IMG/VR virus record: IMGVR_UViG_3300035698_003125
Location: 1-23,169 of that record
DNA length: 23,169 bases
Source: a virus
Direction: 5' to 3' (one strand)
Shown: one piece after another, positions 4,454 to 22,944 of the stretch
Layout: each line of letters starts with the position of its first letter
Position numbering within the stretch: the stretch's first letter is position 1
Position numbers and translations under genes: made by a program
Notes under the pieces: generated by a model
What the model was told of the DNA's origin: nothing
Seen by the model: the letters and a program-made list of their open reading frames with translations, nothing else
Database searches by the model: none

Positions 4454-5281
4454 ATGGAAGGTAAATGGTGGAATAAAGATGAAGTTGAGTACCTGAAAGA
4501 TAATTACCATCGTATAGGAGTAAATTGTGCAAAATGTTTAGATAGAGGTAAACATGCTTGTATGATTAAGGCATATAAACTCGGACTAAAGAAGAACCCG
4601 AAGTTTTTCAGGAGAAGTAAACCGTGGACAAAAGAAGAGATCAAATATCTAAAAGATAACTACTTTGATCTTGGGCCGAGTTGTGCTGATGGGATTAATA
4701 GAAATCGAAGAGGTACTAAAATTAAAGCATCAAGGCTTGGATTGAAGATGAATCCAATGCTTGTAAGAAATCAGAAAGCTGGACAAATAAGAAAGTATCA
4801 TCTACCAATCAAAAACAAAATTATGGTTCAATGTGATTGGTGTAAACAAGAATATGAAACAATATTGTTTAGAATTAATAGACATAAAGGAAAACGAACT
4901 CGATTTTGTTCAAACAAATGTAAATATGCATCAAAGAAAGGAATGGATATGAGTCATCTTTTGAAAAAAATAAAGTTTCGAGATACCTCAATAGAGAAAG
5001 TGCTTTACGGAATATTGAATTCTCTTGGAGTGAAATATTATAAACAGAAAATGATTGGCCCGTTTCGACCAGATGTTGTTATTCCAAGTCATAAACAGAC
5101 ATTTGAAGCATTTGGTGACTATTGGCATAGTAGGCCAGAGAACATGGAAAGAGACAAAAGACGAAGGAAATACCTTGAAGAAAAAGGATGGAAAGAAATA
5201 CATTTTTGGGGTAGCAATCTTCGTAAATATCCAGAATTGTGTAAAAAAGTAATTTCTGATCAATTAAACAATAATGATTAA
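4454..5281 (+). CDS. Vsr-like (EDxHD-type) homing endonuclease with tandem SANT/GcrA-like repeats
   Basis: A 275-residue protein. Residues 5-49 and 58-101 are two copies of a helical DNA-binding repeat, W-(N/T)K-(D/E)E-(V/I)-YLKDNY...KA-LGLK-NP. Residues 127-156 are a CxxC...CxxxC zinc finger. Residues 176-260 are a Vsr/very-short-patch-repair-type nuclease fold: SIEK (E181), FRPDVVIP (D207), FEAFGDYWH (E218, D222, H225) and MERD (D234). These residues fit the EDxHD homing endonuclease group. It is a free-standing mobile gene placed between the terminator and the protease gene, and its stop overlaps the protease start. AAGGAAG at 4444-4450 precedes the ATG. Confidence 0.85.
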   Translation: MEGKWWNKDEVEYLKDNYHRIGVNCAKCLDRGKHACMIKAYKLGLKKNPKFFRRSKPWTKEEIKYLKDNYFDLGPSCADGINRNRRGTKIKASRLGLKMNPMLVRNQKAGQIRKYHLPIKNKIMVQCDWCKQEYETILFRINRHKGKRTRFCSNKCKYASKKGMDMSHLLKKIKFRDTSIEKVLYGILNSLGVKYYKQKMIGPFRPDVVIPSHKQTFEAFGDYWHSRPENMERDKRRRKYLEEKGWKEIHFWGSNLRKYPELCKKVISDQLNNND

Positions 5282-11414: not shown

Positions 11415-12065
11415 ATGAAAACGGGAAAGATCATAAAGTGTAAATTATGTGAGAACGAAGTTTACAGATATCCAAGTCAGTTGAAAATTGGGTATAGATT
11501 TTGTTCTAGGAAGTGTTGGCATGAGTATATTAAGAAGTCATGTCCATGGAAAGGAAGACCATTAACAACAGAGCAGGCTGATGGCCTAGAGAAAGGACGT
11601 AAGATATATCAGGAACGAATTGAGACGCATGGAGTAGCTAAAAGTACTAGGAAGTTGATAAGTAAGTCACTTATTGGGAATACTCGAACGAAAGGTAGAA
11701 AGGCATCATTGGAAACTATTGAAAAGATACGTAAGAGTTCGATTAAGAATGCTAAGCGTGGTAAAGATAGTCATTGGTGGAAAGGTGGGATTGCCACCTT
11801 GCAGAATGCGGTACGGAATACAGGTAAATATAAACAATGGAGGAAGGTGGTTTTTGAAAGAGATTGTTATATTTGTCAGAAGTGTGGAGTTAAAGGTAAA
11901 TTGAAAGCACATCACATAAAAACCTTTACAAAGATTAGAAAGGAGAATGGATTTGAAGATGTTAAAAGTGCGATTGCTTGTAAAGAATTATTTAATATTA
12001 ATAATGGAATGACTGTTTGTGGGACTTGTCACAATGAGATTCACGGAAGAGTCATACCATATTAA
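11415..12065 (+). CDS. HNH homing endonuclease with N-terminal zinc finger
   Basis: A 216-residue protein. Residues 8-40 are a CxxC...CxxxC finger (CKLCENEVYRY, FCSRKCWHEY). Residues about 85-115 contain a NUMOD3-like segment (KGRKASLETIEKIRKSS). Residues 140-212 are an HNH nuclease: KQWRKVVFERDCYICQKCG, KLKAHHIKTF, NINNGMTVCGTCHNEIH. The paired histidines, the asparagine and the two CxxC pairs are all present, so it is probably active. It sits between the tail tube and chaperone genes. A TATAAT at 11403-11408 lies just before the ATG. There is no clear Shine-Dalgarno. Confidence 0.9.
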   Translation: MKTGKIIKCKLCENEVYRYPSQLKIGYRFCSRKCWHEYIKKSCPWKGRPLTTEQADGLEKGRKIYQERIETHGVAKSTRKLISKSLIGNTRTKGRKASLETIEKIRKSSIKNAKRGKDSHWWKGGIATLQNAVRNTGKYKQWRKVVFERDCYICQKCGVKGKLKAHHIKTFTKIRKENGFEDVKSAIACKELFNINNGMTVCGTCHNEIHGRVIPY

Positions 12066-15339: not shown

Positions 15340-16035
15340 ATGTCATTAAGAAGGCCAAGCAAGACAAGAAAGGTTGAGATGATAGAATGTGCTTGTGGCT
15401 GTGGCGAAATGCTGAACAAGTATGATGAGCGAAATCGACCACGAAAATCTTTAAGATACCACCTAATAAGAGAAAGAGAAACATGGAACAAAGGAAGAGA
15501 CGATTGGATGACGGATGAACATAGAGAGATACTACGTCTTGTAAACCTGGGACACACTCCTTGGAATAAAGGTACTGTTGGTAAAATGCCGACACCTTGG
15601 AATAAAGGAGTGCATTATAAAAATGAGAAAGTCTCAATAGCAAACAAAGGAAAAAGGAATAGTCCAGGAACCGAGTTTAAAAAAGGACAGAAAGCATGGA
15701 ATGAAGGATTGCCTGCACAAGAGCAACCGAATTGGAAGAATGGCGGTGTTTCACCGTTACGAAAGAGATTGGAAAAATTGAAAGTTTGGTCGAATTGGCA
15801 CTCCGGTATTCTTGAACGAGATAATTACACTTGTCAGATATGTAATTCTAGAAAAGAAAAATTAGAGGTTGATCATCATCCAATGATGTTTGTTGAAATA
15901 ATTGAAAAATATAATATTACATCAGATCTGCAAGCATTAGAGTGTGATCTATTGTGGGATACACGAAATGGTAGAACCTTGTGCTATTCCTGTCACAGAA
16001 GATGTTCTGCAGAGCAACAGAGAGGAGGAACATAA
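15340..16035 (+). CDS. HNH homing endonuclease with repeated WNKG motifs
   Basis: A 231-residue protein. Residues 15-30 include a CACGCGE metal-binding-like knuckle. Residues 48-128 carry four WN(K/E)G motifs (TWNKG, TPWNKG twice, KAWNEG) spaced along a basic linker, as in many phage endonucleases with modular DNA contacts. Residues about 150-225 are the HNH nuclease: WSNWHSGILERDNYTCQICN, KLEVDHHPMM, WDTRNGRTLCYSCHRRC. All key residues are present. It starts on the base after the distal tail gene's stop, and its end runs into the hub gene, whose original start it appears to have displaced. Confidence 0.88.
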   Translation: MSLRRPSKTRKVEMIECACGCGEMLNKYDERNRPRKSLRYHLIRERETWNKGRDDWMTDEHREILRLVNLGHTPWNKGTVGKMPTPWNKGVHYKNEKVSIANKGKRNSPGTEFKKGQKAWNEGLPAQEQPNWKNGGVSPLRKRLEKLKVWSNWHSGILERDNYTCQICNSRKEKLEVDHHPMMFVEIIEKYNITSDLQALECDLLWDTRNGRTLCYSCHRRCSAEQQRGGT

Positions 16036-16036
16036 A

Positions 16037-17620
16037 ATTCAAGCAGGAGGACAAAGTAGTGCTAGTATATGGACTGCTTTTGAAACACACAGTACAGCGG
16101 AGGTTCGGAATCCGATTCAGGATGTTAAGGTAGCGTGGACACGGGTGAAGGATGACTCTCAAGCGTTCGCTTCGGTTGACTCATCGTTGGTAGGTGGACT
16201 GGATATAGTTCAAGGACAGTTTACAGCGATTACGGAGCCAGACAAGTTTAAGTATTACGAGGAGCAAGAAAGAGTGATAGAATTGTCGTGTGAGCGAGTG
16301 GTAGAAGAACCGTTGGGAGGACTATCATACGCAAGAGGAGATGTAACATTTGATAATACAACAAAAAGATTTACATGGGGTGTCTCTGATACCATCGGAA
16401 CTTCGTTAAAGCCACGTAGACCGATTAAGTTATTCATGGGCTTTAAAGTTCTTTCACAAGATAAAAACATTCCAGTTTTGTACGGTCTAACAGATCAGCC
16501 GAAGGAAGATAAGCAAGGTCGTGTATGTAAGATTGGAGTGTTTGACTACCTGGCGTATATTAATGACTACGAGCTTGGAGAGAGCGTGATGTACCAGAAC
16601 CAGCGTACCGACCAGATTATCGAGGATATACTGACTACGATTGGGTTCGTTTCTAATCAATATACACTAGACCACGGAATAAACACTGTTGGGTTCGCAT
16701 GGTTTGATAAAGGCACGAAAGCAGGAGATGCTATCAAGAGGTTGTGTGTTTCTGAGGAAGCTAACTTCTATCAGGACGAGCAAGGACAGATACGCTTTGA
16801 AAACCGAAGGAAATACGTAGACGCTCCACTTAATGCAACACAATGGACGGTTCGGCAGGAAGATATATTGCAATGGGAGGAAGATAGAAGTGTACCGTTC
16901 ATTAATAATTGTACGGTTAAGGCTAATCCTAGAGAGGTACAAACGAGAACAGAAATCTGGAAGCTCGGTACGTCTATAAAACTGTTGCCACTGGAGACGG
17001 TAACAGAATGGGCTAGTTTTGACGATCCGGTTACAGATATTACGACTCCTATTGCGACTACCGATTATGTTGCGAACACGTCATCAGACGGTTCTGGAGG
17101 CGATATAACTGCCGACTTAGATGTAACGATGACGGAGTACGCTACGTCTGCGAAGTTGGTTATGGAGAATACGGGAACCGATATGATGTATGTAACATTC
17201 TTTCGGCTACGAGGTACTCCTGCGATAGTTCAATCTGAAATAGAGGAGGTGTATGCAGATACTGACAGTGAAGAAAATTACGGTAGAAGTCAGCTAGTCG
17301 TAACAAACGACTTCATCGATTCAGAAAGTTTTGCTCATTACTTAGCGAAAACTGTCGTTAGCAAATATGGCTCACCATTACGAAGAGTTAAGGTAACGGT
17401 TCCGGCATTGCCACACTTGCAATTAAAGGATAAAATTGTGTTGCAAGATAAAGATACTGGAAGTAAGGATGCGTACCGATTGATGAAAATTAGAAACCGT
17501 ATGTCTCCTGGAGCATTTATACAAGAATTAACATTAAGAGAAATAACTTCTGCTGAAGCTGATTGTTCTGCGATAGTGGGCACAACGGAAGTGGGAGGAT
17601 CATGTGTAGTATGGACGTAA
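16037..17620 (+). CDS. Tail hub / tail-associated protein, start displaced by the HNH gene
   Basis: About 527 residues if initiated at ATT 16037. The conserved hub pattern includes IGVFDYLAYINDYELGESVM, NQRTDQIIEDILTTIGF, IKRLCVSEEANFYQDEQGQI and RFENRRKYVDAPLNATQW. The C-terminal half is beta-rich, with SFAHYLAKTVVSKYGSPLRR and VTVPALPHLQLKDKIVL. These are features of siphovirus hub or baseplate proteins that bind below the distal tail ring. No ATG, GTG or TTG lies between the end of the HNH gene and the conserved region. A strong GAGGAGG (16022-16028) sits eight bases before an in-frame ATT. ATG 15968 or GTG 15944, inside the HNH gene, would add unrelated residues. Confidence 0.8.
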   Translation: MQAGGQSSASIWTAFETHSTAEVRNPIQDVKVAWTRVKDDSQAFASVDSSLVGGLDIVQGQFTAITEPDKFKYYEEQERVIELSCERVVEEPLGGLSYARGDVTFDNTTKRFTWGVSDTIGTSLKPRRPIKLFMGFKVLSQDKNIPVLYGLTDQPKEDKQGRVCKIGVFDYLAYINDYELGESVMYQNQRTDQIIEDILTTIGFVSNQYTLDHGINTVGFAWFDKGTKAGDAIKRLCVSEEANFYQDEQGQIRFENRRKYVDAPLNATQWTVRQEDILQWEEDRSVPFINNCTVKANPREVQTRTEIWKLGTSIKLLPLETVTEWASFDDPVTDITTPIATTDYVANTSSDGSGGDITADLDVTMTEYATSAKLVMENTGTDMMYVTFFRLRGTPAIVQSEIEEVYADTDSEENYGRSQLVVTNDFIDSESFAHYLAKTVVSKYGSPLRRVKVTVPALPHLQLKDKIVLQDKDTGSKDAYRLMKIRNRMSPGAFIQELTLREITSAEADCSAIVGTTEVGGSCVVWT

Positions 17621-18054
17621 AGAAAATGAAACCATCACAAAAAGCGTTAAATGAGATTAACGATAGCGGAAAGAAGGTTATAAAAAAGGTGTCATGGAGA
17701 CCGTATGACGCTGCGACATGTTCGTGTGAGATGTTGATACCAGCACGAGTCATGCAAAAAGACTTTCGGTATCTGGAATGTATAAGAGATAAGATTGGAA
17801 TGAAAAAATATAAAATAGTATGTAAGGCGTGCAAGGAAGTGCTAGGTCGATGTTGGTCTAAAGAAAAAGACCTTAAAGATTATTGCGACCTGCATTACGA
17901 AAGCTGGTACGATAAGGACAGTTGGCACGGGTGCTATGGGTTTCATATAGACCCGTTTACAAGCGAGCCTAAATTTGAATGTTGTTGTGGAAATGTGTCA
18001 GTTGAAGGACGTTATACAGAATATAAAATGGTGCTTGACAAAAATGGCAACTGA
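17602..18054 (+). CDS. Cys-rich putative metal-binding protein of unknown function
   Basis: A 150-residue protein with many cysteines: ATCSCEM, VCKACKEVLGRC, YCDLHYESWYD, and ECCCGN near the end. The spacing suggests one or two zinc sites. Residues 1-40 are basic (VKKMKPSQKALNEINDSGKK). It has no similarity I can name. I chose ATG 17602, preceded by GGGAGG at 17593-17598; ATG 17611 is an equally possible start three codons later. It overlaps the end of the hub gene and the start of the next gene, so it is part of the tail transcript and unlikely to be a random frame. The role could be regulatory or structural. Confidence 0.6.
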   Translation: MCSMDVKKMKPSQKALNEINDSGKKVIKKVSWRPYDAATCSCEMLIPARVMQKDFRYLECIRDKIGMKKYKIVCKACKEVLGRCWSKEKDLKDYCDLHYESWYDKDSWHGCYGFHIDPFTSEPKFECCCGNVSVEGRYTEYKMVLDKNGN

Positions 18055-18809: not shown

Positions 18810-19466
18810 ATGGATTTACGAAAGAGTAGAAAAAGAAATAGAGGACAATTTGCAGAAGAGTCAAAGGTTACAGTTGAATGTCATACTTGTGGGAAAAAAT
18901 TGGTAAGAACAACAAACAGTATAAAAGGAAAGAAACGATTTTATTGCAGTTATGAATGTCAACATAGTCGAGGAAGTAAGCATAAATTACAGAAGAAGTG
19001 TAAAAATTGTGGAAATAAGTTTGAAACATATCGAAGCCAGGATCAGATATTTTGCAGTAAACAATGTTATACTGATTATGGGAGGAAACTTTATATTTGT
19101 GCGTATTGTGGAAAACAACGGGTGGATAAAAAGTGTTATTCTGAAAAGAATAAAAGATGGTATTGTAGTAGAAGGTGTAAGCAAAAAGATTTTACAAATG
19201 AACTTACTGCACCATATAAACATTTAAGTGGAACTGGAAAGTGGAAGTCATGGAGGAAGAGAGTATTGAAACGAGATAATTTTAAATGTACCGAATGTGG
19301 CGAGAAACACGGATTAGAAGCTCACCACTCTAAGAAATCGGTTAGAGAATGTATAGAAGAGAAAAATATTGATTACATATTCGATATTGAGAATGGGATA
19401 GCCTTGTGTTCGGAATGTCATAAATTGACAGAAACATGGGGACCCCAAAATAAAATATTAAAGTAA
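18810..19466 (+). CDS. HNH homing endonuclease with several zinc fingers, next to a group I intron
   Basis: A 218-residue protein. Three consecutive Cys4-type fingers fill residues 22-130 (CHTCGKK...YCSYEC, CKNCGNK...FCSKQC, CAYCGKQ...YCSRRC). The HNH domain follows: KSWRKRVLKRDNFKCTECGE, GLEAHHSKKS, DIENGIALCSECHK. All expected residues are present. It starts directly after an orphan start fragment of the interrupted gene and ends six bases before that gene's current start. The intron lies 53 bases past its stop. This arrangement suggests it may cut the intronless form of the same gene and so mobilise both itself and the intron (inference). Confidence 0.9.
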   Translation: MDLRKSRKRNRGQFAEESKVTVECHTCGKKLVRTTNSIKGKKRFYCSYECQHSRGSKHKLQKKCKNCGNKFETYRSQDQIFCSKQCYTDYGRKLYICAYCGKQRVDKKCYSEKNKRWYCSRRCKQKDFTNELTAPYKHLSGTGKWKSWRKRVLKRDNFKCTECGEKHGLEAHHSKKSVRECIEEKNIDYIFDIENGIALCSECHKLTETWGPQNKILK

Positions 19467-19471
19467 ATAAA

Positions 19472-19519
19472 ATGCTAGGAGCAACAACGTACACGGCGGT
19501 GACGTGGACCACTGGAGAT
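19472..19519 (+). CDS. Exon 1 of the intron-split fibre-like tail gene
   Basis: Sixteen codons, MLGATTYTAVTWTTGD, ending GGAGAT. Read on without splicing, the frame stops after two more codons (TAA at 19526-19528). Joined to exon 2 it gives TTGD-VITEAKLDNMVAND, a continuous N-terminal motif typical of phage tail/fibre proteins of the form TWxTGDVITxxKLNxM. The last base is the U expected at a group I 5' splice site. The leader is A-rich without a Shine-Dalgarno, and the start is the re-created copy downstream of the HNH gene. Confidence 0.9.
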
Positions 19520-19758
19520 AAACAATAATGTCTCCTAATCTGGCTATATGCTGGAAACTCCTTATAGTCCTTTGGTACGAAACAGTATCGTAGAAATGCG
19601 AAAGCTGAAAGTGAAAATCCAGAGGAATTGGACAATCAGCAGGAAAGACTCGAAAGAGTATCCCCAACGACTACACGCCAGACTCGAAAGAGAAGATATA
19701 GTCTGAACTATCGTGAGAGCGGTAGATGTTGAAGAAACCTCAACATATTAACAAAACG
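19520..19758 (+). ncRNA. Group I self-splicing intron (239 nt, no internal ORF)
   Basis: P1: exon GGAGAU (19514-19519) pairs with GUCUCC (19530-19535), with a U-G wobble at the splice site. P10: AUAAU (19525-19529) pairs with exon 2 GUUAU (19759-19763). P3: 19539-19544 with 19677-19682. P4: UGCUG (19549-19553) with CAGCA (19637-19641). P6: GGA/UCC with P6a ACUC-GAAA-GAGU (19648-19659). P7: GACUA (19669-19673) with UAGUC (19699-19703). P8: CUC-GAAA-GAG (19683-19692). J8/7 is AAGAUA. P9: 19708-19713 with 19720-19725; P9.1: 19727-19732 with 19740-19745. The last base, G19758, serves as omega-G. I could not settle P5 or P2. Splicing restores the frame exactly. The subgroup is probably IA, as in many phages. 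Confidence 0.95.
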
Positions 19759-20376
19759 GTTATAACGGAGGCAAAGCTTGATAACATGGTCGCAAACGAC
19801 CAGGCGTATGATTCTCATGCGGCACAAGGTATCTTGCTAAACAATAACGTAGGCTACTACCAGAAAGATGCTGGTGGTACGAATCGGGCTACTTCAAATC
19901 TTGATGCAAGCGATCTGCTTACGTTGGGAGATGGCGTAAACATGGAAGTATCGCCAGCTGTTATGGCAAATGCAAGAGCATATTTGAGTGGGTCCGCACA
20001 AGCTATAGGAACTGGTGTTCCAACTAAAGTCCTGCTAGATGCAGAGAGTTATGATGTTGGAAGTGACTTTGCTAGCAATAAGTTTGTCACACCCGTTACG
20101 GGGTACTATACCGTCCATGCTGCGGCTCGATTAGAGAATTTGAAAGCTGATGGCACTTTATTTATATTTGTATATATTGATGGTAGTGGGGTGATTACTG
20201 GATACGCTCAATCGAACGTTGTAAATGACGATCCACGAGCAAATATAAGCGACTCTCAATATATCGTAGCAGGTAAAGATGTCGAGTTGTATGTACAGCA
20301 CAATCATGGCTCAAATAGGGACATAACCAATGATGAAGGAAGTACGTTTCTTACGGTTCGCTTAACAAGCGTATAG
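19759..20376 (+). CDS. Exon 2 of fibre-like tail protein with C1q-like C-terminal domain
   Basis: Two hundred and five residues, starting VITEAKLDNMVANDQAYDSH. With exon 1 the protein is 221 residues. Residues 1-90 hold an extended fibre-like part. The last 115 have a C1q/TNF-like jelly-roll pattern: KFVTPVTGYYTVHAAARLEN, LFIFVYIDGSGVITGYAQS, IVAGKDVELYVQHNHG, STFLTVRLTSV. Such trimeric domains often sit at tail tips and bind receptors or glycans. An ATG at 19726 inside the intron would permit translation from unspliced RNA, but its first eleven residues come from P9.1 and are not protein-like. Confidence 0.85.
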   Translation, partial: VITEAKLDNMVANDQAYDSHAAQGILLNNNVGYYQKDAGGTNRATSNLDASDLLTLGDGVNMEVSPAVMANARAYLSGSAQAIGTGVPTKVLLDAESYDVGSDFASNKFVTPVTGYYTVHAAARLENLKADGTLFIFVYIDGSGVITGYAQSNVVNDDPRANISDSQYIVAGKDVELYVQHNHGSNRDITNDEGSTFLTVRLTSV

Positions 20377-22267: not shown

Positions 22268-22303
22268 ATGGATCTCAAAACGATAGTGCTTGAACTATTA
22301 TGA
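22268..22303 (+). pseudogene. Orphan 5' fragment (MDLKTIVLELL) before the last HNH gene
   Basis: ATG to TGA encodes 11 residues, and the stop overlaps the HNH ATG (ATGA). The peptide resembles the amphipathic N-terminus that precedes SDYKSRKFLMV in the membrane protein at 22941, as if MDLKTIVLELL once ran into SDYKSRKF. The leader has TAAATT 20 bases upstream of the ATG, as before the 7945 gene. It is read as the displaced start of the 22941 gene. Confidence 0.5.
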
Positions 22304-22944
22304 TAATCTGCAAAGAGTGCGGAAAACCTAAGATTAAGTATACGTTTTCTTCTACGACAACTTGGCGTTGTTCTGATTGTTATCCAAAATATATGAAACA
22401 GTATAGTAAGAAGTGGAGAGAAAGAAACAAGGAATATAAGGCAAAAAAGGATAAGGAATATCAACAAAAAAACAAAGCTAGAATAAATCAGTTAGCGATG
22501 ATTAGAAGAGAGAAAAATAGAGACCACTATAGGAAATATTATCGTGAGTACGTTAAGACCAATAATGCCAAAATCCAGAGACATCAAGATAAATATAAAC
22601 GGAATAACAAAGATGCTTGGTTGGAGTCGAAAAGAAGGTGGAGAAGAAATAACTTGATGTGTCAACGCTTATACATGGCGAACAGAAGAGAAAGAATTGG
22701 TGATTCAAGTATTGACAAAAAGGATATTGATAAAATGCTTAAAGACCAAAATGGTAGGTGTGCGTACTGTTTCATTGATGTCACAGAAAAATTTCATATA
22801 GAGCATAAAATACCTATTTCGCGGGGAGGTGGAAATGAACTTGAGAATATTGTTCTCTCGTGTCCGCACTGTAACTACAAAAAGTCAACTAAAACCCCGA
22901 AAGAATTTTGGGAATATCTAAATTTTCAATATGAGTTAATATGA
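22300..22944 (+). CDS. HNH endonuclease (classical PF01844 type)
   Basis: A 214-residue protein. Residues 4-27 form a zinc finger (CKECGKP, CSDCY). Residues 30-125 are an extremely basic Lys/Arg/Asn/Tyr helix region, probably wrapping DNA. The HNH core is at about 147-200: NGRCAYCFIDVTEKFHIEHK, IPISRGGGNELENIVLSCPH, CNYKKSTK. Metal and catalytic residues are intact. It differs from the other HNH genes here in using the canonical CxxC-HxxH-N-CxxC form. The start overlaps the orphan fragment's stop and the end overlaps the next ATG, both as ATGA. Confidence 0.9.
   Translation: MIICKECGKPKIKYTFSSTTTWRCSDCYPKYMKQYSKKWRERNKEYKAKKDKEYQQKNKARINQLAMIRREKNRDHYRKYYREYVKTNNAKIQRHQDKYKRNNKDAWLESKRRWRRNNLMCQRLYMANRRERIGDSSIDKKDIDKMLKDQNGRCAYCFIDVTEKFHIEHKIPISRGGGNELENIVLSCPHCNYKKSTKTPKEFWEYLNFQYELI

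Follow-up and report, generated by a model that had tools for sequence, protein, structure and literature searches.

A predicted ORF-less group I intron near the start of a fibre-like gene, beside a free-standing HNH endonuclease gene, in an IMG/VR virus record

We analyzed a window of 23,169 nucleotides, that is the whole stretch of DNA taken from IMG/VR virus record IMGVR_UViG_3300035698_003125 (positions 1 to 23,169). Towards its end, a gene for an HNH endonuclease is followed by a gene for a putative fibre-like virion protein whose 5' end is split by a short insert:

18810-19466, + strand: free-standing HNH endonuclease gene, 218 aa (HNH_2, PHROG 1271), candidate homing partner
19472-19519, + strand: exon 1, 16 codons, MLGATTYTAVTWTTGD (same N-terminus in uninterrupted relatives)
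19520-19758, + strand: ORF-less group I intron, 239 nt (RF00028, helices, covariation)
19759-20376, + strand: exon 2, GTT ATA ACG (VIT...) onward, rest of the fibre-like virion protein (ORF list, relatives, PHROG 13989)

When the insert is removed, codon 16 is joined to GTT and the reading frame continues as MLGATTYTAVTWTTGD-VITEAKLDNMVAND, with TWTTGDVITEAK as the peptide across the junction. A preliminary description of this DNA had placed the splice after codon 16, so as to restore TTGD-VITEAKLDNMV, and had proposed an alignment with uninterrupted homologues as a check. The uninterrupted N-terminus was found in 20 viral contigs and one Candidatus Moranbacteria MAG, and all 21 relatives align through the junction, crossing the joined exons without an insert. 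No RF00028 match was obtained in the records of these 21 intronless relatives. Without splicing, the reading frame of exon 1 is closed by the TAA at 19526-19528, after two codons of intron sequence. The wrong N-terminus that had been foreseen for annotation from ORFs alone was indeed obtained, the ORF caller starting the gene at ATG 19726, inside P9.1. The C-terminal part of exon 2 matches the virion structural protein family PHROG 13989 (E 8.9e-9), which supports the assignment to a fibre-like structural gene; "fibre-like" is thus a reasonable but not proven name for the product. The spliced protein gave no convincing match by tblastn against phages and no match in the PDB. No clear Shine-Dalgarno sequence is seen ahead of ATG 19472 within 19440-19475. 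Among the relatives, L033 is the sole one found in the genome collection; its contig belongs to the Candidatus Moranbacteria MAG, which hints weakly at a Patescibacteria host. L015 and L016 each carry an adjacent pair of genes that both have the WTxGDxITEAKxD N-terminal motif, and to judge from these pairs the intron target may be present more than once per genome.

The insert at 19520-19758 (+) is, with high confidence, an ORF-less group I intron with splice sites 19519/19520 and 19758/19759, and its excision from the RNA is predicted on this basis. The Rfam covariance search that had been suggested matched RF00028 (Intron_gpI) to 19485-19725 on the + strand with 61.5 bits, above the gathering cut-off of 50 (E 2.9e-15 in a 501-base search and E 1.3e-13 over the whole window); a gathering-mode scan of the whole window with the Rfam fast filters did not find this match. 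The intron region folds better than 200 of 200 shuffled sequences (z -4.8), and the ORF list holds no endonuclease-sized ORF within it. No tRNA genes were found when these were sought in the window. The elements of the intron are as follows, all on the + strand:

19514-19519/19530-19535 (19514-19535): P1, GGAGAU/GUCUCC, with U19519.G19530 at the 5' splice site
19525-19529/19759-19763: P10, AUAAU/GUUAU, pairing with exon 2
19539-19682: catalytic core, P3 to P6a (Rfam alignment, fold, helix check; covariation for P3, P4 and P5)
19539-44/19677-82: P3 (helix check, covariation)
19549-54/19636-41: P4 (helix check, covariation)
19559-61/19630-32: P5 (covariation)
19569-75/19619-25: P5 extension, CCUUUGG/CCAGAGG
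19642-19665: P6 and P6a (Rfam alignment)
19669-73/19699-703: P7, the G-binding helix, GACUA/UAGUC, enclosing the P3 3' strand and P8
19683-85/19690-92: P8 (helix check)
within 19669-19703: J8/7, AAGAUA
19708-14/19719-25 (within 19708-19746): P9, GAGA tetraloop (pairing, covariation)
19726-32/19740-46: P9.1 (pairing)

The last intron base is G19758. In a base-by-base check we found all the elements that had been traced before, namely P1 with its U-G, P10, P3, P4, P6/P6a (through the Rfam alignment), P7, P8, J8/7 and P9. We also aligned 19 related phage introns of the same class, in which 96.3% of the pair cells are formed and both sides have changed in 16 of 30 pairs. The covariation score was 0.51, against 0.12 for shuffled alignments, and collapsed when the alignment was slid by one column. 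The covarying helices are P3, P4, P5, P8 and P9; P7 and most of P4 are invariant in the 19 introns and so add no covariation support, and P8 is the least well paired helix (74%). In all, the Rfam score, the helices and the covariation bear out the description of a minimal ORF-less group I intron. Assignment to subgroup IA was rejected since the intron is without P7.1/P7.2, only CAC (19674-19676) lying between the P7 5' strand and the P3 3' strand.

When IMG/VR was searched with a specific pattern made from the intron's own P7-P8, no further copy turned up. The nearest intron sequences found, those of L046, L124 and L080, share about 80% identity with it across 103 nt of core sequence but lie in other genes, and the ORF adjoining that of L046 is of LAGLIDADG type. 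BLASTN against phages gave partial matches only, to group I intron regions of Acinetobacter phage Herod (nrdB region), ICP1 and others. Rfam alone under-counts introns of this class, because the core of L122 aligns well with them and yet gives no Rfam intron match at E 0.001.

Two readings under which the insert would not be a splicing intron have to be weighed against this evidence. A degraded copy could have lost splicing, the protein then being made from ATG 19726 in P9.1 on unspliced RNA (MLKKPQHINKT-VITEAK...), and the frame is open from this ATG through exon 2. We consider this very unlikely: the core helices are all intact, P7 agrees with the invariant columns of the 19 introns, the ATG itself falls within P9.1, and exon 1 retains the conserved TYTAVTWTTGD, which would not be expected if it were untranslated. 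Since the intron was seen at the fibre-like gene site in one contig only, from a metagenomic virus record, a misassembly or a chimera might be suspected. The insert is however exact at both splice sites and in frame, and P1 and P10 pair with the flanking exons, so that we regard such an origin as extremely improbable.

The preliminary description had called the location unusual, on the grounds that phage introns usually interrupt conserved catalytic genes. This was not confirmed among related introns. A core pattern search of IMG/VR gave 108 stretches and a second pattern search at least 120. We assigned exon 2 to a family in 30 IMG/VR representatives, a non-random set hand-chosen for distinct exon 2 and omitting introns with unreadable exon 2 (the exon 2 gene was not assignable in L041, L045, L049 and L071, for example, which stand outside the count of 30). 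Eighteen of them belong to head or portal families, eight to tail families and one to the glycosyltransferases, and three are without match, which places 26 of the 30 in head or tail genes. Several related introns also follow exons of only about 7-20 codons (L131, L137, L122, L128, L061 and L136). The setting of the intron is therefore common for its class. Group I introns usually insert in a conserved stretch of a gene, and the present site follows this rule: no part of the protein is more conserved than the motif that surrounds the insertion. During the survey we also observed two near-identical group I introns in series in L120, their cores 280 bp apart, and three RF00028 matches in a row, one of them below the cut-off, ahead of a portal-like exon in L078 (3222-4047, - strand).

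Phage tail genes with ORF-less introns have been published before. Minor tail gene 33 of the mycobacteriophages BAKA and Optimus carries an ORF-less intron of 265 bp whose splicing was shown by RT-PCR (PMC3706429). Like the present one, it is small, interrupts a gene for a virion tail protein and was recognised against uninterrupted relatives; it concerns other phages and another gene, and the window differs in having a free-standing HNH gene directly upstream.

This HNH gene (18810-19466) matches Pfam HNH_2 with 21.6 bits, the cut-off being 21, and the HNH endonuclease family PHROG 1271 with E 1e-20. The best viral-contig match found for its protein is an HNH encoded in a group I intron of L010. 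Translation of the interrupted gene may be coupled to that of the HNH gene, whose stop codon precedes ATG 19472 by five bases. Gene and intron lie no more than about 55 bp apart, and both are absent at the same place in all 21 relatives. Directly upstream, most of the relatives have instead an ORF for a conserved Cys-containing protein like that of 17563-18054, and L015 and L016 another protein with the same N-terminal motif; no recognisable endonuclease was seen among the directly upstream ORFs of the 21 relatives, judged by eye from their sequences.

An ORF-less intron beside a free-standing HNH gene, with intronless relatives that lack the gene there, is the anatomy of collaborative homing, in which a free-standing endonuclease cuts the empty site of an intron and both are copied in (PMC6083498; review PMC3984707). 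Cyanophage S-PM2 has a psbA intron with free-standing F-CphI (PMC6083498), and the terminase intron of ICP1 adjoins a T5orf172-type endonuclease gene (PMC10448857). In these systems, as in the window, a separate homing endonuclease gene lies beside the intron and not inside it. They combine an Endo VII type with psbA and a T5orf172 type with a terminase gene, whereas the window combines a predicted HNH with a fibre-like gene. A closer parallel is L172 (IMG/VR 3300009012_000001), where an HNH gene is followed by a fibre-like gene that is likewise interrupted by a group I intron close to its 5' end. The intron core is ORF-less and of the class found here (RF00028, 53.5 bits), and the intron lies, in our own interpretation of the sequence, in a similar-looking N-terminal motif, VGQVLTAAQMNQVE, the insertion being a few codons further in. 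The HNH protein of L172 matches PF01844/PF14279 and not the Pfam model of the window HNH, and because these models differ the parallel is one of arrangement and not of shown descent. Between the two parts of L172 exon 1 (MAYSFQTF ... VGQVLTAAQMNQVE) there is an apparent one-base frame discrepancy.

We then looked at what lies upstream of other introns of the class. For 31 ORF-less introns, a script picked out the longest of the ORFs that end shortly before the core. From these we dropped by hand the identical L217 and L243, the near copies L080, L186, L201 and L214, and L068 with its doubtful short ORF, which left 24; for L078, the script's ORF was replaced by the Endo VII ORF ahead of the first of its three introns. 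Ten of the upstream ORFs resembled endonucleases, and a scan gave a Pfam match for each: GIY-YIG upstream of L039, L137 and L210, NUMOD3 upstream of L086, Endonuclease_7 upstream of L078, L099, L100, L242 and L250, and HNH upstream of L172. With the window, a free-standing endonuclease gene thus lies directly upstream in 11 of the 24 ORF-less introns with a visible upstream ORF. Ten more upstream ORFs were scanned, giving LAGLIDADG for L046 and L102 and a weak Vsr for L153, none of which was counted, and no endonuclease match for the other seven; those of L128, L192 and L231 were judged by eye. L046 and L102 were set aside since their LAGLIDADG ORF reaches the intron core and may be intronic. 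As a control we drew further ORFs at random from these contigs, reduced to 85 and minus the L078 Endo VII ORF (counted as adjacent), of which about 4 matched endonuclease families, a lower bound if all matches are different ORFs (two GIY-YIG, one LAGLIDADG and one NUMOD1 among the 25 of 43 families listed). Fisher's test of 11/24 against 4/85 gave p 5e-6, which overstates the difference, as the set was pruned by hand, the control count is a lower bound and some loci are related (about four to five insertion sites are independent). We therefore take the enrichment as a strong lead and not as a measured rate.

The main alternative accepts the splicing intron but holds that the HNH gene is unrelated to it, being a homing endonuclease for its own insertion site next to a passive or remnant intron. 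Several nuclease-like genes lie at other gene borders in the window:

4454-5281: nuclease-like gene, Vsr/DUF559-like
11415-12065: nuclease-like gene, HNH by Pfam, weak
15340-16035: nuclease-like gene, HNH-like Cys/His pattern by eye, no Pfam match
22300-22944: nuclease-like gene, HNH by Pfam, strong

With these four the proximity of HNH gene and intron could be due to chance, and in some relatives HNH genes are found at other places of the genome or tail region (L029). Moreover, 10 of the 24 ORF-less introns are without an upstream endonuclease gene. Against this stand the joint absence of gene and intron from the relatives and the enrichment of endonuclease genes directly upstream of the class. 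We put an unrelated HNH gene at slightly under an even chance. As to the origin of such loci, PMC10448857 gives as an alternative that a free-standing endonuclease gene is gained and an intron-internal one lost.

By the standard group I route, known from the intron family, exogenous guanosine bound in P7 would attack after U19519 in P1, and the freed exon 1, aligned by P10, would then attack after G19758. The ligated mRNA would encode MLGATTYTAVTWTTGD-VITEAKLDNM..., while on unspliced RNA translation would end at the stop within the intron. Under collaborative homing, the HNH enzyme would cut copies that lack the intron, at the insertion site or close to it, and intron and HNH gene would be copied in together; going by the anatomy of the locus, we give this about an even chance. 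More tentatively, the pairing of a free-standing homing endonuclease gene with an ORF-less group I intron at the start of the next structural gene may be a recurrent partnership in uncultivated phages, which HNH, GIY-YIG and Endo VII enzymes would each have entered independently. The 5' position would then arise because the endonuclease gene fits only between genes and must cut nearby.

ORF calling alone would misplace the start of this phage virion protein, and the analysis sets its N-terminus right. The locus is also another probable instance of pairing between an intron and a homing endonuclease gene that stands apart from it. Should the upstream position of endonuclease genes be borne out once such introns are surveyed in full, the presence of these introns at the starts of structural genes would have a simple explanation.
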